Assembly (NCBI GenBank): GCA_037355855.1
Contig: CM074766.1
Coordinates: 2,976,001 to 3,040,000 of the forward strand
Direction of reading: 5' to 3'
Length of the DNA stretch: 64,000 nt
DNA from: Pseudo-nitzschia pungens
Taxonomy: Eukaryota; Bacillariophyta; Bacillariophyceae; Bacillariales; Bacillariaceae
The position numbers and the translations under genes are program-made. Shown piece after piece: positions 243-57,578 of this stretch (position 1 is its first letter; each line of letters starts with the position of its first letter). A model generated the notes under the pieces. That model saw only the letters and a program-made list of their open reading frames with translations. It was not told the origin of the DNA and did no database searches.

Positions 243-1096
243 CGTCGCGATTATACTTTTTGTTTACACGCTACCGATTAAAATCTGTTCCGATTGACCT
301 TGGAAAGAGAAGTCTATCCACCGCGCTTACTCACTGATTTGCACTGTCCTCTGTCTCCAGTGGTCAATAGGAAGATGCGTTCTTCGATGATCGGTTGGAA
401 GTTGAAATTAAATCGTATTTGCGGTCCAAAATTCAAAAGTAACGGCATGCTTCATGTGACACAAACAAGATCATATGGAAAAATCGTTGCTACGACTAGA
501 AAAAGTAATACCGGTACTTCGTAATAACAATCGGAGAAAGTGTAAGTCGCAAGTGCATTTTGTGACCAACGGTTAACGGGATGATCTTCAGGGCAATTAT
601 TACAAAACTTTTGAAATAGGCGCAACGCGTCAATAATGAGATAGACTGTAACGGTAGGAAAATAAAAAGTTGTGAGTGAATAACAAAACAAGATGTGACT
701 AGAAAACAGTGCAAAGTAAGGTTACTTGTACGAGGACGGAATACAATCACAAAAATAAATACTGTACTGTATTGAGGGATGGTGCTTACCGTACGTAATG
801 TATTGGTAACCTTACCGGTACATCAAAGTATGCACGAAAAACGTGCTTCGTAGGATTATTAACCACCGGTATGTACGATCTTACGTACGGCTATTGAACT
901 CAATTGAACTCCTGTACAAGCATTGTATCCTACGGTAGGGTATGAGTAAGTTACGTTGTTCCTGAACGATCATCGTTGCAAAAATACAGCAAGGTTACTT
1001 GATAGCACAACCACACACGGGATTCATGGTAAGATCCGATACTCTGATTGATACCGGTACCCTTTTTTTTTTATTGAGAGAGAAAGTGCCCCATTG
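243..1096. other. Intergenic, no gene recognised
   Basis: AT-rich spacer between the partial protease and the DNA transposon. Short open frames on both strands resemble nothing recognisable. It contains several GTACGTA/TACGGTA/GTAAG words and a poly-T run near 1063-1072. Confidence 0.5.
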
Positions 1097-1100
1097 ATTT

Positions 1101-1127
1101 AAGACGGTCCGAATAAAAATGTGTTGT
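1101..1127 (+). repeat. Left terminal inverted repeat
   Basis: 27 bp beginning AAGACGGTCCGAATAAAAAT. It is the inverse complement of 4680-4706 apart from one base (position 23). Confidence 0.88.
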
Positions 1128-1598
1128 TGCTGCAAAATGACCCAAAATGACTGTAAAAACAAAAAAAGGCACATTGGACCAATCGATAGAGCTCATTTTA
1201 AGTTTGTAGCTGATGTTTTTCTTTAGTTCCAACTCCTTCTAGAAGAGAACTTATGAACAAATGACTGCAAAACAATCGATTAAAACGTTACTCACATGGT
1301 CTGTCAGTAGGTGCGCACATGTGTCAAAAACTATCAGTTTCATTCTTGTTAACCACTCCACTGTGCGCGATTGTTGAGTTTCTCTTTGTTTATCGAAAGC
1401 AAGACTCCCATGTTTTTTTTTTCTTCCTTCTTTTATTTTCGATCGATACAATCTCACCTGCAATGAGCTCAATGACAAGAAGTTAGTGTGAGCACCTCAT
1501 CAGCTCAGCACCTCTACTGCTAGTATTCAACTACTACCTCCTTAACACGCCGGGGATCGATACTTACTGCTGCTGGGTGCCTCTGAACAAGGCAGAAC

Positions 1599-4307
1599 AT
1601 GAGACTAAAACGCTCAATGATCACGCCGGAGGAGTTGTTAGAAGAAGAAGAACAACGCCAAGAAGAAGCAGATGAAGCAAGGATCCGGATCCACACAAGA
1701 AGAAGAGGGGAAAGCTGTCCAAGTGATGATGAGAGCATTGGTTTTGTTCCTTTCGATTGTGTTTCTCATCCATTTGTCACCTTCAGAAAGAAAGAAAACA
1801 AAAGAATGTCGGATGAGGAGAAGATAAAGCACTGTGTTAAATGGATCGATTTGGCACCTCCCTACTGCAAAAAGATCTACGTACCAAGGAAAGGAGTCGA
1901 CAAACTATCCAGATGTACCTGTCTCAGTATCATTGAATCCTTTGGTGAATGGAAAAAAAGAAGAGCAGTGGCAGAATACATGGTATTCTTTTCTAAGAAG
2001 ACAAGGGCAGAACAACAAGAGATTATCATGAATTGGATCAGATACACCACCACAACTTCTGAAGACCACGCCGCAGTACAAAATACTCCTAGTACTACTA
2101 CTAGTGATACTATCGGACGCCGGAAGTATTTCATTCCTTTTCTTTCTCCGGCTGCCGAAGAAGGAACAAGGACGAGGGACACGACAAGAACTGCTGATGC
2201 TGGCGCTGATCCCCAGAGAGTTTTGTTCCCTCGTCATGTCATCAATACTAACAATGCACAAGACTCGCCACCACCACCACCAGCAGGACCAGAAGGGAAC
2301 TTGTCAGGGATGGATAACTATAAAATCTGCAGATCAGCTGTTGCTTTTCTGCTGGACTTCGGGCTTCGAAAATGGAAGACTTGTGAGAGTGCTGTAAAAA
2401 AGAACATCATACCACTGCATGGAAATAAGAACAAACGCTCAGGGAATGGTCGCGAATTCGATACAGCAGTCAGGGAAGATCTACACCTTTACTTCCAGAA
2501 GATGTCCTTGTTTGCAGAGCCAACATCAACAAGAATTGTTCGTGAGATAGGAGGAGTAGGATTAAGGGATGGAGAAGATGAGATCAGAGAGCTTCCATCA
2601 AATCAGTCAAAGCGCGCGATGTATCATCGATTTGTTGAAAGCAGAGGATGGCTTGTACAGAGAAGGGGCAACAGCTACAGGTATGTTCTTAATGAAACTG
2701 AAGAAGACCCTGCAAAACCATACTGTGCTTTGTCTACCTTCTGCAATTTCTGGTCAGACAACTACAAGCATTTGAAACTTGCAAAGCCCCGCGAAGACAC
2801 TTGTACAATGTGCCATATCTACTACCACAGGATGAAGCACCTTGCAAGGAGAAACACGACGACTGCTGCCACCAGCAGCGAGGAAGTTGAAAAAATGTTA
2901 GAGTTTTGTTCCACAGCTTCCACTCTTCCAGAACAAACGTTCCCTGCGATGGAACTACCAGCAATTGTTCGAGAATCAACCTCCGGGGAAATGAAGGAGC
3001 AAGTGAGGGAAGCAATACTCCATGTGAAAAGGGTTCAAGATCAGAGGAAATATGCCAATGAGAAGATCGAACGTGCACGTGTGGATGCAAAGGCAAACAA
3101 GCCACACGCTGAATGTGTTCGAACCATAGTCATGGACTACAGTCAGAACGTTGGTCTTCCACAGCTCGGATCCACTCAGCCCGGAAAGACTTACTATTAC
3201 TGCCCCCTGAGAGTCTTTATTTTTGGTATTGTCGACTTTGGTGTCCCTGGAGAGTCCCTCGACGCCTTCGTATATCACGAGGGACAAGGGGGAAAGGGAG
3301 GCAATCATGTTGCTTCCATGCTGATGAAATACTTGAAAGAAAAGAACTGGCTTCGCGCCGATGAGTGTGGAAAAGAGCTGAATATTCTGTGTGACAACTG
3401 CCCTGGACAGAACAAGAATAATTTTGTTCTAAGACTAGCTGCGTTCCTTGTCCAAGCTGGATATTTCAAGCGTGTCAGCTTTATCTTCTACATTGCAGGA
3501 CACACAAAGAATGCATGTGACCGGTGGTTCAATATACTCAAGAGGCAGTATCGCGTCTCAAATATTTGGACGTTCAATCAGTTGTTGAAGAAGTTGGATA
3601 CACATAAGCGCGTTCAAGTTGTAACTATGAAGGAAGGTGAATTCAAAAAGTTTGATGAATACACCAACAAGGTCTTCAAGAGGATTAAGGATCTCCTGAC
3701 TGCCCATAACTTTCATGCAGACAACTCTCGTGTGGAATACATGACAATGGAACAGGATCGCATTGGAGGAAAGACTTGGACGCAAAAAATGCTGTTAGGT
3801 GGTATGACGCTTGAGCAGAGGAAGGAAGAATTTAGGAAGTGGGAAACTATAATCAACTGTGAGAGTACACCAGGGATCCCTCCAATAAAGCAGATGGAGC
3901 TGTTCACAAAGTGGCGTCCCATTGTCCCAGAGAAGCATCAAGACGAGATATGCCCAGAGCCCTCCGCCGAAGTCAAAGCAATGTATGACAAGGATAAGGC
4001 AAGGAGGAAGGAAAAAAGAGAGCAAAAGAATAGAAAACTAAAGAGGAACTCACCGGCAACAGGGGTACCACCACCGGCAGCAGCCCCTACAGAGTTGACA
4101 ACAGCTGAATCGATTGACGACGAGGTACAACGGCCGGTCGACAATCTAGAAAATTGCCCTCCTCGTCCTCCTGTTGGTGGTCAATCGACATCCACCATGG
4201 TGGAGAACATTACCAGCAGCAGTAGTGAAGCAGATAGTCTGCTGGATAGTGGAAGTACTCCTGTTGTTGCTGCTGCTGCTGCTCCTGTTGCACTTGCCAC
4301 GCTATAG
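1599..4307 (+). CDS. Putative DDD/GQNKN-motif transposase, 902 aa
   Basis: Single-exon ORF from an ATG at 1599. Residues 1-200 are charged and low complexity. Near residue 400 a DTCTMCH...H stretch could bind zinc. The central part resembles an RNase H-like fold. MDYSQN lies near residue 512, CDNCPGQNKNN near 598, and an H-x-K-N-x-C-D-R-W block near 640, giving three spaced Asp residues as a candidate catalytic triad. The CDNCxGQNKN signature occurs in a widespread set of uncharacterised eukaryotic proteins that I recall being treated as transposase-like (DUF7869); that is recollection, not a search result. The C-terminus is Lys/Arg-rich (about 790-815) and then Ser/Pro/Ala-rich. Its position inside a TIR element with a target duplication makes transposase the natural role. 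The catalytic assignment is inference. Confidence 0.78.
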   Translation: MRLKRSMITPEELLEEEEQRQEEADEARIRIHTRRRGESCPSDDESIGFVPFDCVSHPFVTFRKKENKRMSDEEKIKHCVKWIDLAPPYCKKIYVPRKGVDKLSRCTCLSIIESFGEWKKRRAVAEYMVFFSKKTRAEQQEIIMNWIRYTTTTSEDHAAVQNTPSTTTSDTIGRRKYFIPFLSPAAEEGTRTRDTTRTADAGADPQRVLFPRHVINTNNAQDSPPPPPAGPEGNLSGMDNYKICRSAVAFLLDFGLRKWKTCESAVKKNIIPLHGNKNKRSGNGREFDTAVREDLHLYFQKMSLFAEPTSTRIVREIGGVGLRDGEDEIRELPSNQSKRAMYHRFVESRGWLVQRRGNSYRYVLNETEEDPAKPYCALSTFCNFWSDNYKHLKLAKPREDTCTMCHIYYHRMKHLARRNTTTAATSSEEVEKMLEFCSTASTLPEQTFPAMELPAIVRESTSGEMKEQVREAILHVKRVQDQRKYANEKIERARVDAKANKPHAECVRTIVMDYSQNVGLPQLGSTQPGKTYYYCPLRVFIFGIVDFGVPGESLDAFVYHEGQGGKGGNHVASMLMKYLKEKNWLRADECGKELNILCDNCPGQNKNNFVLRLAAFLVQAGYFKRVSFIFYIAGHTKNACDRWFNILKRQYRVSNIWTFNQLLKKLDTHKRVQVVTMKEGEFKKFDEYTNKVFKRIKDLLTAHNFHADNSRVEYMTMEQDRIGGKTWTQKMLLGGMTLEQRKEEFRKWETIINCESTPGIPPIKQMELFTKWRPIVPEKHQDEICPEPSAEVKAMYDKDKARRKEKREQKNRKLKRNSPATGVPPPAAAPTELTTAESIDDEVQRPVDNLENCPPRPPVGGQSTSTMVENITSSSSEADSLLDSGSTPVVAAAAAPVALATL

Positions 4308-4523
4308 AAAATAATGAGTATACTCATCGTACTAGTGACAGATTATTCCCCCCGCCGCCTCGGTGCTCATACCAATGCTGCCTTGACTATTGTACCACAT
4401 AGCGCGCCTCCTCCTCCTTGAGTATGAAACAACGGATCAAACATGGTTGATTGTCGGGTAGGGTATTCGGAATGGAGACAATCAATGTTGACAGAACAAT
4501 TTCTCATGTGATGCATTCACGAC

Positions 4524-4586
4524 GTTCGAATAAAAATGTGTTGTGTTCGAATAAAAATGTGTCGTGTTCAAGTAATAATGTACTGA
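4524..4586 (+). repeat. Subterminal repeat, three 21-bp units
   Basis: Three adjacent 21-bp units start at 4524, 4545 and 4566. The first two read GTTCGAATAAAAATGTGT plus three bases and copy the inner half of the terminal inverted repeat, in the same orientation as the left TIR; the third is degenerate. Subterminal copies of TIR words commonly serve as extra transposase-binding sites, which is the likely role here. Confidence 0.7.
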
Positions 4587-4679
4587 CAGGGATTTTGGAG
4601 TCCCAAGATTGATTTCTTGACAGTCTTTTGACCATTTCTCGAAAAAACTATTTCCCGGGACATAGCTCGGCAGGCGCGG

Positions 4680-4706
4680 ACAATACATTTTTATTCGGAC
4701 CGTCTT
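4680..4706 (-). repeat. Right terminal inverted repeat
   Basis: Inverse complement of 1101-1127 with one mismatch, followed immediately by ATTT (4707-4710), the same four bases that precede the left repeat. Confidence 0.88.
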
Positions 4707-4710
4707 ATTT

Positions 4711-5042
4711 AAAGTTAACAGGACAAAAAAATTATAACTAATAGAAGCAAAAACAGCAAGAAAAAAACAAGCAAAAGGACAACCGGGGTCTCCGGCGCAC
4801 GTCAACTTCGGAGTGCACGTACTACTCTTTGCTCACATTATTTATCATTCGCTTTGCCAGCATACACTGGCCGGCATGAGGAGGCGAGGCATTGGTTGGG
4901 GGTGGTGTGGGGAGAGTGGAGCAAATGTTGCGAGCCATGCTTCATAGACGAAGGGGAGGCACGACTGAAGGAATGTAGGGTTGGTCTGACCGGGGTCAGG
5001 TAGGCTGGGTTGGTGCAGAGGCGGGGTTGGTGCCCTTCTTGT
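4711..5042. other. Intergenic, left flank of hairpin-rich insertion
   Basis: G-rich sequence without a convincing gene. On the minus strand a 71-codon open frame (5053-4838) would join, across the insertion, the frame that is open at 7385-7143 after one stop codon. This could be an interrupted old pseudogene, but the translation resembles nothing I know. Confidence 0.35.
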
Positions 5043-50677: not shown

Positions 50678-51020
50678 AAGAATCAAATCGATTGGTCCAG
50701 AGCAGAAAGACCGATAGAATTCTTCTTCTTTTGGTCATAACCAACCATCCAACCATCGGACCGGAAATGGATACCTTTCTAGCCAACCATCGATGTGGAT
50801 ACCTTCCTTCGAAGACGTCGGCACGAAACTGTTGACACCAATGCTGACGTGACACATGATACCTTTCTTTTGATTGTCGACGCGTGACCTCCGATCGACA
50901 CGGACCATCGATTCGGATGTTCGATTGACAAATTGGATGGAAACAATCCCCATCACAAAAGAATTTGGTTTAGAAATCCGAAGCAAGTTAGTTACTCAAA
51001 GCAAGTCAGCAAAGTCAACC

Positions 51021-53024
51021 ATGGCCAAGCAAACTAGAAGCCAAGCCGCCGCCGCTGCAGCCGCCGCCAGAGACGGCGCCCCTGGAGCTGTCCCTGGAGG
51101 TGGCGCTGCCCCTGGAGGAGACGCCGCCCCTGGAGATGGTGGTGGAGCTGTCCCCGGAGCCGGAGCCGGAGTCGGCGCTCCCCCACCTGGAGATGTCCCT
51201 GGAGTCGTCGATGGAGTCGGCGTTCCCCCTGTCGGAGCGCCTGGAGTCCCTCCTGTTGCTCCTGCTGTCCCTGCTGCGTTTGGAGCCTCCAGAGTCCGAC
51301 AAGAACCAAACCTTGAAATCCAACCCCGATCTGAGATGATCCTGCTTGCTGCTATTCAGGAACTGAGAGCAATGCGCAGCGAAAATGCAGCCCGGATTGC
51401 TGCTGACGCTGCTGCTGCCGCCGCTCGTGAGGATGCAGCCCGGATTGCTGCTGAAACTGCTGCTGCTGCTGCTGCTGCTGCCGCCGCCGCCGCTCGTGCT
51501 CCTGCTCCTGCTCCCGCTCCTGCACCTGCAGGGGCTAGCCCTGATATCCTCCAAGCTCACGCCACAGCCCAGGCTAACGGAGGCATCTCTGGATACAAGA
51601 ATGGAGCGAAGCTCACCTCAAGAGAATTAGACCTCCACAAGATCCTTTCTGGTTTCAGCAACAACGATACGGCGGATGAACTATTCCGGAATGGCCTCAA
51701 CAGCATCGAGGCGATCCAGCAGCTCTCTGCCAAGGAACTCCCCAAGTACCTACGTGATTTCAATAGCGACCGTCATCCGATGTGCCCCCACCCTGAACGA
51801 GTATTCATCGGACTTTCCTTCAGACAATCCTTTAAGCTTCTTTCTGAGTGGATCCGCTACCAACCACTCATTGGTATCAAGCCTACAGCCCATACTTGGC
51901 TTAGTGATCCCCTCGCAGCCGACCGAACTCGTGATCGCCTACACGGAATGGAAACCTCCGACAAGGAGACAGTCGCATCCATTACCCCGCCGAAGCTCGC
52001 CAGCCTTGACAACTTCCGTAAGTGGGAAGAAAACTTCCGCCAGTTCCTCCGCTTCCAGTACAATGAACGAGGATTCCCCTTATCATATGTCATTCGCCCG
52101 AAGGAGCAAGAGACGGTGACTGCAGCTGACAGGTCCGCCACTGTTGGGAACGACGGGACCTATTCCAACTGGATGGATTATAATGTTCGATGCGCCACGC
52201 TTGAAGGCCCACAGTTTGTCACTGACAACCACGACGTTTGGGTGCTGCTCTGTAACGCGGTCAGCGACGGGCCCGGTTGGGCCTACACTCGAAAGTACAA
52301 AGACGCGAAGCATCCAACTGGGAATGCCCGAGCCGCATTCCTAACTCTATACGAGAATGCCTTCTCTCAGACGAACGTCACGGCTATCCTTGACAAGGTC
52401 CGTACCGGTATGTACACCTCTCGCTACACAGGAGACTCTCGAACATACGACTTTGAGAAGCACTGCAGAACTTGGTTGAATTTCCAGACTACGCTCACCA
52501 ATCACGGCAAGTTGCCAGACGAGCAAGACTTCACCATGAATTTCATCCACAGCATCCAAGACGATCGGTTTGAGAACCCCAAGATCCAAGCCCTCGACAG
52601 TGACAAGTATACCACGAACTTCAATGAATGCGTCTCATTCTTCAAGAAATGCCTCGGCATACGGAAGATGGGTGCGGCTTCAACCAAGCGAGCGCGAAGT
52701 ATTTCCTCTGTACGTCAAGATGGTGGCGATGGTCAAGGAAGTAGCAACCACGGCGGATCGTATAGCGGGAAGGTCGAAGACAAGAAGTATCCCTACGAAG
52801 TTTACAAGACCTTCTCCAAGGAACAACGAAAGCAGTTGTACGACCTCCGCCAGAAGAAGAAGGCCCGAACCATTCAGTCCACGAGTTCGAGCCATGCCAC
52901 GCCTGCTGCCTCCGCGAACGCGAACGCGACCCAAGGCGCAGGGAACAGTTTTGGGCCCAAGGGGCGCAAGAAGGGCAAGAAGAAGGGCAACGGCTTGAAC
53001 CAAGGACAGACCCCCAAGAACTGA
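51021..53024 (+). CDS. gag: Retrotransposon Gag, first copy, 667 aa
   Basis: Start taken at the ATG at 51021 (MAKQTRSQ); the frame is open upstream to 50874 without an obvious better ATG. Residues 8-190 are Ala/Gly/Pro-rich and low complexity, and a long Ala tract precedes residue 200. The conserved capsid-like part (about 210-560) includes WLSDPLAADRTRDRLHGME, FRKWEENFRQFLRFQYNERGFPLSYVIRPKEQE and a helical C-terminal part typical of copia Gag. No CCHC zinc knuckle is seen. The C-terminus is instead strongly basic (GRKKGKKKGNG), which may bind RNA. The frame ends in TGA at 53022 and the next codons continue in the same frame into pol. It differs from the second copy by Arg against Gly at codon 17 (51069). 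Confidence 0.88.
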   Translation: MAKQTRSQAAAAAAAARDGAPGAVPGGGAAPGGDAAPGDGGGAVPGAGAGVGAPPPGDVPGVVDGVGVPPVGAPGVPPVAPAVPAAFGASRVRQEPNLEIQPRSEMILLAAIQELRAMRSENAARIAADAAAAAAREDAARIAAETAAAAAAAAAAAARAPAPAPAPAPAGASPDILQAHATAQANGGISGYKNGAKLTSRELDLHKILSGFSNNDTADELFRNGLNSIEAIQQLSAKELPKYLRDFNSDRHPMCPHPERVFIGLSFRQSFKLLSEWIRYQPLIGIKPTAHTWLSDPLAADRTRDRLHGMETSDKETVASITPPKLASLDNFRKWEENFRQFLRFQYNERGFPLSYVIRPKEQETVTAADRSATVGNDGTYSNWMDYNVRCATLEGPQFVTDNHDVWVLLCNAVSDGPGWAYTRKYKDAKHPTGNARAAFLTLYENAFSQTNVTAILDKVRTGMYTSRYTGDSRTYDFEKHCRTWLNFQTTLTNHGKLPDEQDFTMNFIHSIQDDRFENPKIQALDSDKYTTNFNECVSFFKKCLGIRKMGAASTKRARSISSVRQDGGDGQGSSNHGGSYSGKVEDKKYPYEVYKTFSKEQRKQLYDLRQKKKARTIQSTSSSHATPAASANANATQGAGNSFGPKGRKKGKKKGNGLNQGQTPKN

Positions 53025-53065
53025 AACGACGGCCGGTGCCCGAAATTAAGTAAGGTTGGCCGGCT
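53022..53065 (+). promoter_or_regulatory. Candidate stop-codon readthrough signal
   Basis: The gag stop TGA (53022-53024) is followed after 6 nt by GGCCGGT (53031-53037), which can pair with GCCGGCT (53059-53065) across a 21-nt loop, with two G-U pairs at the ends. A stable stem a few bases after a leaky stop is the arrangement known from readthrough retroelements. The second copy has the same at 62168-62211. Confidence 0.55.
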
Positions 53066-56000
53066 ATTGTACCAGATGGATCTGCCGCGCGCGCGCCCGA
53101 GTCCTGAGGGACAGTGCGAGCTGGACAGCCACGCTGATACGACCGCCGCCGGTTCCAATATGATCTTGCTTGAAGACCAAGTCGTCAGCCACGTCGATGT
53201 TCATCCTTTTTCGCCTGAGCTCGAGCCTATCAAGAACATTCCTATTGGGACCTGTGTTACGGCCTACACAGATACCGACGGGAAAGTTTGGTTGATTTAT
53301 TTCCACGAAGCCCTGTATTTTGGTGACAAGTTGTCCCACAGCTTGATTTGTCCGAATCAGATACGGGATTGCCATCCCAATCGTGTCAGCGAAACGCCCC
53401 GTCAGTATGATGAACAGTCCAGTCACTCCATCCATATTGACAATACCGATCCTGAAGATCCCCATGCGGGACACACCCTCGACATCAAGCTCATGCTTGA
53501 TGGGGTCGTGTCCTATTTCCCTTCCCGCAAGCCAACCAAGCATGAAATGGCTACATGCGATCATGTCGTTGCTACCCGAGACTTCCCTTGGGATCCGAAG
53601 AGCAAGAAGTTCGAGCAAGCCGAAGAAGCCATCGACGGATCTCATCCGTTGAATCCTACGCTGTCTGTCCTTCGCGCGGGGACGCCCCATGCGTCCGCGC
53701 CGACCACGAAGCAGTCCAAGAAGTCCAACAAGCGTAAGCTGGAGCCCGTCGAAACACGGTCCAACTTCAGTCCCCATTTGTACGACAAGCCTCTTCGGAG
53801 CGACGAGCTGATCCTCCCACAGCATGATTGCTATGAGAAGTACAAGCTGCGGAGCCTTCAGCAACTCTGTACCCGCCGTGATCTGACCCCATGTGCGATC
53901 GCATCCGACTCGCGTCTGGATGCGCGGCTATCTTCTCTTTTTCATTCGGGCGATTCCCTGAAGACTTGCGGGGACGATGATGTAGACGAGGATACAGTTC
54001 CAAGTCTTACAGTCAACGCCCTGCATACCCCTCTGTACGAGCGCGCCTACACCGATGGACGCGAGCGCTTCGAATTGGATCCCCGTTGCAGGGATTCCCC
54101 CGTCTGCCTGTCTGCCGTTTACAAGCATGTTCGATGGGACGACGATGCAGTCGAACCAGTCGATCCCGAGCTCGACACTATCGCCAGACGAGCCAAGTGG
54201 GGTCCGACGATTGACACCGAACGATACTGCAAGATCGACTCCGACCGTCTGTCCAAGATTTGGGATGTATCTCCGAGAAAGGCTGCGGATACTCTTCGAG
54301 TCACGACCCAGAAAGGCTTCCGCAACCCTATGCATCCCCTTGTCCGTCGATTGCCAACGCAGAGCTTCAGAAACAAGCGCATCGCGGCTGGCAAATGGTA
54401 CACCGACACCTGGATGGCAAAGGTCCCGAGCATCATGCGACAAGATTCAGCCGCCCAAGTTTTCAGTAATGGTAAGGGCTACAACGAGTTCATACCTATA
54501 CAGGGCAAGAAGCAAGCGTATGAAGGCCTGAAGATTTTCATCCACGACGTCGGTATCCCCGAGCATTTGATATCTGATGGCGCTCGAGAGCAAGGCGCCC
54601 CTGGTACTTACAAGACTCCATGGAATAAGGTCGTCAGCAAAAACCATATCCATCAGACCTTTATCCAGCCAAGATGCCCATTCCAGAATCGCGCGGAGCT
54701 CAGCATCGGCCATATCAGCAGAAGCATCCGCAAGAAGACGGCTCGGAAGCGATCCCCCAAGCGCCTGTGGGCTTTCTGCGGAGAGCTCGTTGCTGCCATC
54801 CGACAGCGCACTGCTTCCAGTGATCCTACGATGATGGGTCGAACGCCGTTCGAAATTGTACATGGGTACATGCCTGACATATCTCTGTACCAAGCCCATG
54901 AATGGTATGATTTCGTCTATTGGGTTGATCTCTCTGATGGGACTGAGAAGCTGGGACGATGGCTTGGCCCGTGCGGTGACCGATTCGGAGGCGGAGACTG
55001 CCACTGGATCCTGAACGAGGCGGCCATGCCGGTAAGCACTAACACAGTCCGTGCTGTTACTGAAGAAGAATGGCGTTCCCATGACGTCAAGCGCTATATG
55101 GACTCATTTGACCAAGCAGTGGAATCCAAGATCGGGGACAAGGTTGAGGATAACGACGCAAAGTTCCAAGCTACGTACCCTGATCCCCCTGCCGAGTTAT
55201 TTGAAGGACACCAAGAACGGTGGGAGCTCGCCGAGCCTGAAGCCTCTATTCCAGATATCGACGACCTCATACCTGATGGGGATGACTATGATGAGTATAT
55301 TGGTAATAATGTCATGATCCAGAAGGGCGATGAACGACTACGGTGTGTCGTGAAGAATCGTTCTGCTGACCTTAATGGCAATCCGATTGGTAAGAGGAAT
55401 GATAACCCTATCCTTGATACCAGAATGTATGATCTGCAGTTTCCAGATGGTTCCGTCGAGCAGTACACCGCCAATATCGTTGCTGAGAGCATGTACAGCG
55501 AGATCGATGACGACGGACGAATGTTCTCTCTACTGGACGAGATTATCGACCACGAGAAGGACGGATCGGCCGTCAGGAAGCAAGACGCGACGATCACCAA
55601 CAAGTATGGTCGTAAAGTCCCAAGGCCTACAACGAAGGGTTGGCGATTGCTCGTCAGTTGGAAAGACGGAACCGAATCCTGGTGTAAGTTGAGCGATCTG
55701 AAAGAGTCCTTTCCTGTGCAGACCGCAGAATACGCCATATCTGCCAAGATCTCGGATCAGCCAGCATTCCGATGGTGGATCCACCATGTACTACGAAGGA
55801 AGAAGCGAATCCTCAAGGCCACCAAGCGAAACAAGTACTGGGATCGGACCCACAAGTTCGGAGTGGAGTTACCACATTCTATCCCTGAAGCTCTTGCCAT
55901 CGACCGAAAGACGGGAACGGACTATTGGGAGAAGGCGATTGCAAAGGAGATGAGGAACAACGAGATGGCGTTCGAGTTTGACTCCAGCTACACCGTCGAA

Positions 56001-57578
56001 GGTCTGAAGGCCGAAGGATTCAGCAAGATCACGACGCACATGATCTTTGACGTGAAGTTGGGGTCTCTGACGCGGAAAGCACGGCTTGTCGCCGACGGCC
56101 ACAAGGTACAAGCCACAGCCAAGGAACATACCTTCAGCAGTGTTCCAAGCAGAGATTCAGTCCGTATCTTCTTCCTGTTGGCAGCGCTGAACAATTTGGA
56201 TGTGCTGTCTGCGGACATACAGAACGCATATCTTACAGCGCCGATCAAGAAGAAGTATTATCTAGTTGCACGGGCTGAAGATGGTTTCCCCCAGCATTTG
56301 GTAGGTCAGGTATGTAAGATCGTCCGAGCACTGTATGGACTTCCTGTTGCAGGCGCGTCGTTCCGATCCTATTTGACCAAGCACCTACGAACGCTAGGGT
56401 ATCAGCCTTGTAAAGCTGACCCTGATGTTCATATGCGAGTGGAGACGCGAAAGGATGGTTCTAGGTACTGGGCATACCTGATTGCATACGTCGACGATAT
56501 TATCTGTTGCAGCGAGGACCCTCGACGACAGTTGGAAAGTATCGAGCAGCGCTTCACGCTGAAGGACGGGACTATAGAGGTTCCAACCTTGTATCTGGGC
56601 GCTGATGTCCATCCGCATGTGGTCGAAGACGATCCAATTCCCAAGTGGGCAATGTCCTCCGAGAAATATGCTAAGAAGGCCATCGACGCAGTGGAAAAGG
56701 AGCTTGGCACCGAGCAATATGGTTACAAGTATCTTCCGAACAAGGTGTCTACCCCGTTGACATCCGATTATCGTCCAGAAGTGGATGTAACCGCCGAGCT
56801 GGATCCAAGCAAGCAGAACTACTACCAGGGTCTGATTGGCGTATTGAGATGGTTATGTGAGCTCGGTCGACTGGATTTGGTCATGCCTGTATCTCTCATG
56901 TCTAGGTACCTAGCCCAAGCAAGAACAGGGCATCTGAACCAAGTATTGCACATGTTCGCTTATATCAAGGCGCATGCACGATCCAAGTTAGTATTTGACG
57001 AGACGCGTCCTGATGTGGACGAGACTAGATTTTCCAATTGTGATTGGAGTGAGTTCTATCCGGACGCCAAGGAGGTGTTGCCACCAGATGCCCCTGAAGC
57101 GCTTGGAAAAGCAGTTATTATGAGTTGTTTTGTCGATGCGGACCATGCTGGATGCAAAGCCACGAGAAGATCCCATACCGGAATTATCATCTTTGTAAAC
57201 AGAGCCCCTATCCTGTGGTTCAGCAAACGCCAGACCACTGTCGAGACGTCAACCTTTGGTTCTGAGATAGTGGCATTGCGGATTGCCATTGAACTGATTG
57301 AGGGTCTCAGGTACAAGCTCCGGATGATGGGCGTTCCTATTGAAGGTCCTACGAATGTGTACTGTGACAACGAGTCTGTTGTTAAGAATACCACCAGACC
57401 GGAGAGTCCATGCAACAAGAAGCACAACAGCGTTGCTTACCACAAAGCGCGCGAGTCTATTGCTGCTGGAACAATCCGAATCGCAAAGGAGCCTGGTGAG
57501 ACCAACATTGCTGATTTATTCACTAAGTTGCTGAATGGTCCGGCTCTGAAAGACCATTGCGCTCGATGCATGTGGTAA
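53025..57578 (+). CDS. pol: Retrotransposon Pol, first copy (in frame with gag after TGA)
   Basis: Open in the gag frame from the codon after TGA to 57578, about 1,517 codons, with the first ATG only at 53076. Domains: aspartic protease (ELDSHADTTAAGSN, near 53120-53160); integrase with D (WYTDTW, about 54403), D (ISDGARE, about 54565) and E (QNRAELSIGH, about 54688); reverse transcriptase (KARLVADGHK, DIQNAYLTAPI, YVDDI at 56487); and RNase H (FVDADHAG about 57133, YCDNESV about 57360). Integrase before RT is the Ty1/copia order. The lack of an early ATG and the shared frame imply expression as a Gag-Pol fusion by reading through the TGA. All catalytic residues look intact. Confidence 0.9.
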   Translation, partial: NDGRCPKLSKVGRLLYQMDLPRARPSPEGQCELDSHADTTAAGSNMILLEDQVVSHVDVHPFSPELEPIKNIPIGTCVTAYTDTDGKVWLIYFHEALYFGDKLSHSLICPNQIRDCHPNRVSETPRQYDEQSSHSIHIDNTDPEDPHAGHTLDIKLMLDGVVSYFPSRKPTKHEMATCDHVVATRDFPWDPKSKKFEQAEEAIDGSHPLNPTLSVLRAGTPHASAPTTKQSKKSNKRKLEPVETRSNFSPHLYDKPLRSDELILPQHDCYEKYKLRSLQQLCTRRDLTPCAIASDSRLDARLSSLFHSGDSLKTCGDDDVDEDTVPSLTVNALHTPLYERAYTDGRERFELDPRCRDSPVCLSAVYKHVRWDDDAVEPVDPELDTIARRAKWGPTIDTERYCKIDSDRLSKIWDVSPRKAADTLRVTTQKGFRNPMHPLVRRLPTQSFRNKRIAAGKWYTDTWMAKVPSIMRQDSAAQVFSNGKGYNEFIPIQGKKQAYEGLKIFIHDVGIPEHLISDGAREQGAPGTYKTPWNKVVSKNHIHQTFIQPRCPFQNRAELSIGHISRSIRKKTARKRSPKRLWAFCGELVAAIRQRTASSDPTMMGRTPFEIVHGYMPDISLYQAHEWYDFVYWVDLSDGTEKLGRWLGPCGDRFGGGDCHWILNEAAMPVSTNTVRAVTEEEWRSHDVKRYMDSFDQAVESKIGDKVEDNDAKFQATYPDPPAELFEGHQERWELAEPEASIPDIDDLIPDGDDYDEYIGNNVMIQKGDERLRCVVKNRSADLNGNPIGKRNDNPILDTRMYDLQFPDGSVEQYTANIVAESMYSEIDDDGRMFSLLDEIIDHEKDGSAVRKQDATITNKYGRKVPRPTTKGWRLLVSWKDGTESWCKLSDLKESFPVQTAEYAISAKISDQPAFRWWIHHVLRRKKRILKATKRNKYWDRTHKFGVELPHSIPEALAIDRKTGTDYWEKAIAKEMRNNEMAFEFDSSYTVEGLKAEGFSKITTHMIFDVKLGSLTRKARLVADGHKVQATAKEHTFSSVPSRDSVRIFFLLAALNNLDVLSADIQNAYLTAPIKKKYYLVARAEDGFPQHLVGQVCKIVRALYGLPVAGASFRSYLTKHLRTLGYQPCKADPDVHMRVETRKDGSRYWAYLIAYVDDIICCSEDPRRQLESIEQRFTLKDGTIEVPTLYLGADVHPHVVEDDPIPKWAMSSEKYAKKAIDAVEKELGTEQYGYKYLPNKVSTPLTSDYRPEVDVTAELDPSKQNYYQGLIGVLRWLCELGRLDLVMPVSLMSRYLAQARTGHLNQVLHMFAYIKAHARSKLVFDETRPDVDETRFSNCDWSEFYPDAKEVLPPDAPEALGKAVIMSCFVDADHAGCKATRRSHTGIIIFVNRAPILWFSKRQTTVETSTFGSEIVALRIAIELIEGLRYKLRMMGVPIEGPTNVYCDNESVVKNTTRPESPCNKKHNSVAYHKARESIAAGTIRIAKEPGETNIADLFTKLLNGPALKDHCARCMW

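Follow-up and report, generated by a model that had tools for sequence, protein, structure and literature searches.

A 64,000-nucleotide stretch of the genome of the diatom Pseudo-nitzschia pungens (contig CM074766.1, positions 2,976,001 to 3,040,000), hereafter called the window, carries at its positions 1101-4706 an element of 3,606 bp that is directly bordered by ATTT on either side. It is, with a probability of about 0.93, a class II cut-and-paste transposon that is intact and was recently mobile. The protein of its only gene would be a DDD transposase folded like RNase H, with D513, D599 and D641 as its triad. The ends of the element, the ATTT duplication, the 27-bp terminal inverted repeats (TIRs) and an unbroken open reading frame (ORF) of 902 aa had been read in a first-pass annotation of the letters alone, and all of them were confirmed, with 26 of the 27 TIR positions paired. 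The TIR pair is the longest inverted repeat listed for positions 1080-4730, and the longest ORF of the element besides the transposase encodes 123 aa in antisense.

Copies, target sites and related families in the genome

The 66.9-Mb assembly (28 contigs) was searched with the protein of the window, which gave at least 65 matches. At least 10 of these are full-length copies without internal stops, the set of 10 full copies described here having been chosen by a search that itself selects open frames, and among the remaining matches are many fragments, some carrying stops. The end pattern AAGACGGTCCGAATAAAAATGT, with up to three mismatches allowed, was found at 29 places in the genome as against none for a reversed control. 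The 10 full copies account for twenty of these places and two broken-up copies for four, and the other five are single ends with no partner within the fetched stretch. The full copies fall into two subfamilies that are 91.5-91.8% identical to each other. Subfamily one comprises L009-L012, mutually 99.83-99.97% identical, with L013 at 98%, and subfamily two comprises L014-L017, mutually 99.78-99.83% identical, with L018 at 98.2-98.3%. Such near-identical young copies argue for recent mobility, and the element was apparently active not long ago.

Further copies with 4-bp duplications, which the first-pass annotation had called for, were indeed present. The left and right 4-bp flanks are identical in 9 of the 10 full copies (ATAT, ATTT in the window, TTAT, AAAT, ACAT, ATAT, AAGT, AAGT and ATTT), and a 5-bp match was observed in none. 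The exception is L017 (G000:C4:6116611-6122289), which lacks a 4-bp duplication and has AAAT on the left and AGCC on the right. It lies instead between direct repeats of about 107 bp of target sequence that end in AAAT, as if insertion or repair had produced a very long duplication. ATTT also borders each end of the two broken-up copies, which were apparently split by later insertions and now span about 41 kb (C1:6921013-6962031) and about 11.9 kb (C2:2868486-2880350). TIRs together with a target duplication of fixed length were in this way found at independent copies, 9/10 full and 2/2 broken-up. At the C1 locus (L045, L046), collinear fragments of one element lie between two matching ends, and the target resembles the centre of a palindrome.

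Two further families were found in the same genome. They are 42-46% identical to the window family in the conserved region, and their ends are likewise of the AAG...CTT type. In family 2, L029 (769 aa) has the ends AAGGACGGTATTACAG and the flanks ATCT/ATCT, its variant L035 the ends AAGAGCGGTATCACAG and the flanks ATAT/ATAT, and L033 of the same group has unlike flanks, CAAT and ATAT. Family 3 (L030 and L031; 759 aa) has the ends AAGCATGGCGCTACAG, with the flanks AAAT/AAAT and ATTT/ATTT. The 4-bp duplication is present in four of the five family 2 and 3 copies having both ends located. Ten loci of these families were extended upstream, L036 being left out, and the two ends were not both found at five of them (L026, L027, L028, L032 and L034). 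A frame at C8:437349 (L080) with a weak N-terminal match was dropped, no element ends being seen there. Downstream of the transposase gene, L026 (2885-3330) and other family 2 elements contain tandemly repeated units of about 175 bp, about 77% alike, as deduced from offset matches in sequence comparison.

When the three families are pooled, 15 of 17 flank pairs are identical. AWWT is read at 22/34 flanks and ANNT at 30/34, so that the target preference is looser than strict AWWT, a pattern that makes up 1.7% of the 4-mers of the window.

Empty sites had also been proposed as a check, and one exact paralogous site was found, for one of the 10 copies. The joined flanks of L014 are 100% identical to C1:5105027-5105246 over 220/220 bases, with a single copy of the duplication. 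The L014 junction is crossed in 41 of the 47 rows of the empty-site search, mostly with slight differences in length and an identity of 84-96%. L014 was inserted into a dispersed repeat, and the matching sites are therefore paralogous empty sites. The best 40 of 782 candidates were scored, a set dominated by the repeat targeted by L014, and among these matches no exact empty site was seen for the other nine full copies. The empty site speaks for insertion only, not for catalysed excision. The repeat itself (C1:5105027 and about 40 other places) includes several pairs about 2.8 kb apart and may be a long terminal repeat.

The transposase and its bacterial relatives

The window protein matches the Pfam family PF25273 (DUF7869) with 74.7 bits (cut-off 26, E 9.6e-21), a family for which Pfam gives no function and whose domain is still listed as unknown. 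Family 2 and 3 proteins also match it above the Pfam cut-off, as do four bacterial relatives. The Pfam stretch starts after the first conserved Asp and covers Asp 2 and Asp 3. CDNCPGQNKN and two further spaced Asp motifs had been noticed at the outset, and they proved conserved in an alignment of 47 proteins (Table 1), in which 46 proteins have 41 residues between Asp 2 and Asp 3. In a CxxCH motif upstream of the core, C402 and C405 are present in 46/47 rows and H406 in 26/47, a conservation that points to a possible metal site.

An RNase H-like core, named in the first-pass annotation as a feature to look for, was predicted in a core model with a pLDDT of 86.7, and the structures most similar to it are those of retroviral integrases and DDE/D transposases. 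This model was preferred to a full-length model of low confidence (pLDDT 59). In the predicted fold, strand 1 and the helix following strand 5 each carry one of the acidic residues, the remaining one being placed just behind strand 4; D513, D599 and D641 are presumed to be the catalytic triad. The model thereby indicates that DUF7869 would be the cutting core of the transposase. With retroviral integrases, the mariner-type Mos1, IstA and TnsB, the protein would have in common the RNase H fold and the placement of acidic residues, whereas none of them was matched by sequence in the PDB and the spacing between the second and third Asp is 41 here. A PDB search by the window protein sequence gave six matches, none better than E 0.11, with no transposase among them, and the profile of 47 relatives found nothing there.

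Relatives were few in the first protein searches (3 and 5 hits among the matches listed), and with words drawn from the core 39 of 211 candidates were relatives. Among viral structures, Foldseek gave nothing for the core model at E <= 0.001, and the viral contigs scanned contained no relative. Two weak matches were obtained among phage families, both of unknown function, and neither the bacterial nor the diatom protein matched plasmid records.

In the prokaryote collection, 11 loci (L081-L091) encode relatives with 20-31% identity in the best segment. Their hosts include Thiomargarita, Desulfobacterales such as Desulfocicer vacuolatum, Nitrospirales, Legionellales, Cycloclasticus and Verrucomicrobia, among others. 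DUF7869 was found in all four bacterial proteins scanned (57.5-79.8 bits), none of which reached the cut-off of any NCBIfam family. L087 also has a match to PF07592, a DDE transposase model, with E 0.018, which stays below the cut-off. Within a sample of 297 genomes from the phylum of Desulfocicer, DUF7869 is present in one, the starting genome itself. In a tree of the 47 rows, rooted for drawing only, full support (100/100) was obtained for a group made up of P0041 and the four bacterial rows, to the exclusion of the remaining 42.

TIRs at related loci, to which the earlier reading had also been tied, were seen in families 2 and 3 and around the gene at six of the 11 bacterial loci, where the inverted repeats have a common outer edge, GGG, that was placed by eye and taken as the element end. 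At the other five (L083, L084, L086, L090 and L091), convincing TIRs were not found. The flanks are identical at L081 (ATTT/ATTT), L087 (AAAT/AAAT) and L088 (AATT/AATT) and unlike at L085 (AAAT/ATTT), L082 (ATAT/ATTT) and L089 (AAAT/ATAT, read on L100). All 12 flanks of these six loci are AWWT. Identity in three of six pairs is no more than chance within AWWT words (P 0.32), so a bacterial duplication is only suggestive; the flank preference is stronger. The bacterial loci are best described as rare insertion-sequence-like elements encoding the same kind of enzyme.

Mechanism, rival explanations and superfamily

The proposed mechanism is of the cut-and-paste rather than the copy-and-paste type, as we infer from these features. 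The N-terminal part of the transposase would bind the 27-nt TIRs and perhaps also the subterminal 21-nt repeats, which are candidate extra binding sites. A metal-dependent nuclease and strand-transfer core would then cut both ends and excise the element, which would be inserted at ANNT, mostly AWWT, with a 4-bp stagger that repair would turn into the target duplication. The rare bacterial elements would use the same kind of enzyme, also between AWWT flanks.

It is very improbable that the copies were moved in trans by another transposase with the 902-aa protein as a passenger. The single long ORF is open in the 10 full copies, a set chosen for open frames, the protein has a predicted DDE/D integrase-like core, and a separate version of the protein is found in each of three families whose ends differ. 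Still more remote is the possibility that inverted repeats frame by chance a host gene that does not move, or a segmental duplication. Full copies are few, and some relatives have long common flanks, such as L026 and L028 (99.7% over 4,119 bases), from which it follows that segmental duplication also happens in this genome. Nevertheless, nine of the 10 copies have exact 4-bp duplications in differing flanks. These duplications, the paralogous empty site of L014, and the TIRs and duplications that families 2 and 3 have of their own all argue for transposition instead.

As to the superfamily, Sola of the Sola2 type is the probable assignment, favoured by about two to one in our estimate, in a comparison made by reported features. 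In the passages cited, Sola elements have a DDD transposase and 4-bp duplications and are present in bacteria too (PMC10741241), and a listing for the diatom Cyclotella cryptica includes Sola (PMC7466962). The 4-bp target duplication is present in this element, and the DDD transposase is present as judged by conservation and by positions in the predicted fold. Dictyostelid Sola2 elements are described with TIRs of 12-21 bp, as against 27 here, with 4-bp AWWT or similar AT-rich duplications, which are also found here though with the looser preference given above, and, in one family, with a transposase of 888 aa, as against 902 here (PMC3627910). The same source links dictyostelid families with a Fanzor1 gene, unlike this element, in which the longest other ORF is the antisense one of 123 aa. 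The measured features fit Sola2, and the AWWT type of duplication makes Sola likelier than an undescribed superfamily. Tc1/mariner elements differ in that their target duplication is TA (PMC10741241). The Kyakuja-Dileera-Zisupton (KDZ) elements are alike in having large eukaryotic transposases. Profile searches for DUF7869 and KDZ had been suggested at first pass, and only the former gave a match. PF18758 (KDZ) is not among the four Pfam families listed up to E 10 for the window protein, HMMER filters dropping most matches above E ~0.1, and KDZ membership has no support in this result. A genome-wide KDZ search matched nothing, controls included, and was uninformative.

DUF7869 might alternatively be the catalytic half of an undescribed DDE/D superfamily distinct from Sola1-3, with eukaryotic and bacterial branches, a DD41D signature, AWWT-like 4-bp sites and TIRs that begin with AAG (diatom) or GGG (bacteria). 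This is a tentative proposal, clearly the less likely of the two. It is favoured by a Pfam domain of unknown function, by the four bacterial proteins lying below all NCBIfam cut-offs and by the profile of 47 relatives having no PDB match. DUF7869 is unmentioned in the full text of the open-licence papers searched, GQNKN occurs there in five papers whose titles and opening abstract lines are off topic, and no earlier link was found. These literature negatives cover open-licence papers only, and the Sola2 features, the bacterial occurrence of Sola and its listing for C. cryptica cited above weigh on the other side. Superfamilies are joined in Repbase by iterated profile search at E < 0.005, according to the rule as cited (PMC4455052).

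DUF7869, so far without a function, would gain a specific role, that of a transposase's nuclease core, for which three likely catalytic residues are named, and the intact young copies with measured ends are material for assaying the chemistry. Through bacterial relatives with the same flank type, a group of eukaryotic transposons is linked to insertion sequences of bacteria for which none of the NCBIfam families scored above its cut-off. If DUF7869 belongs to Sola2, the element is a clean reference for it; if not, it founds a superfamily.

Element features and surroundings

Table 1. Features of the transposon in window coordinates.
Feature	Position	Strand	Evidence
Left target-site duplication, ATTT	1097..1100	.	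Direct read and comparison of copies
Left TIR, 27 nt	1101..1127	+	26/27 paired; 29 genome matches to first 22 nt, 0 for control
Transposase ORF, 902 aa	1599..4307	+	No internal stop; 10 full-length stop-free copies
CxxCH motif (C402, C405, H406), upstream of catalytic core	2802..2816	+	Alignment conservation; candidate metal site
RNase H-like catalytic core (predicted), about residues 507-652	3117..3554	+	Structure model
Presumed catalytic Asp 1, D513 (VMDYSQN), first strand of fold	3135..3137	+	D in 46/47 rows
Pfam DUF7869 match, residues 538-718	3210..3752	+	E 9.6e-21
Presumed catalytic Asp 2, D599 (CDNCPGQNKN), just past fourth strand	3393..3395	+	D in 47/47 rows
Presumed catalytic Asp 3, D641 (GHTKNACDRWF), helix after fifth strand	3519..3521	+	D in 45/47 rows
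Two tandem subterminal 21-nt copies of inner TIR motif	4524..4565	+	Repeat comparison; candidate extra transposase-binding sites
Right TIR, 27 nt	4680..4706	-	26/27 paired with left
Right target-site duplication, ATTT	4707..4710	.	Direct read and comparison of copies

The silicon transporter family PF03842, which marks diatoms and other silica-forming algae, has 11 matches in the genome, the best at 774.7 bits. Elsewhere in the window, the regions 50874-57578 and 60020 to the last position each contain a frame of 716 aa; the two frames are nearly identical, have the same orientation and lie about 9.1 kb apart. The first is followed by a frame of 1,503 aa that, judged from its translation with no search made, resembles a Copia-type retrotransposon polyprotein.
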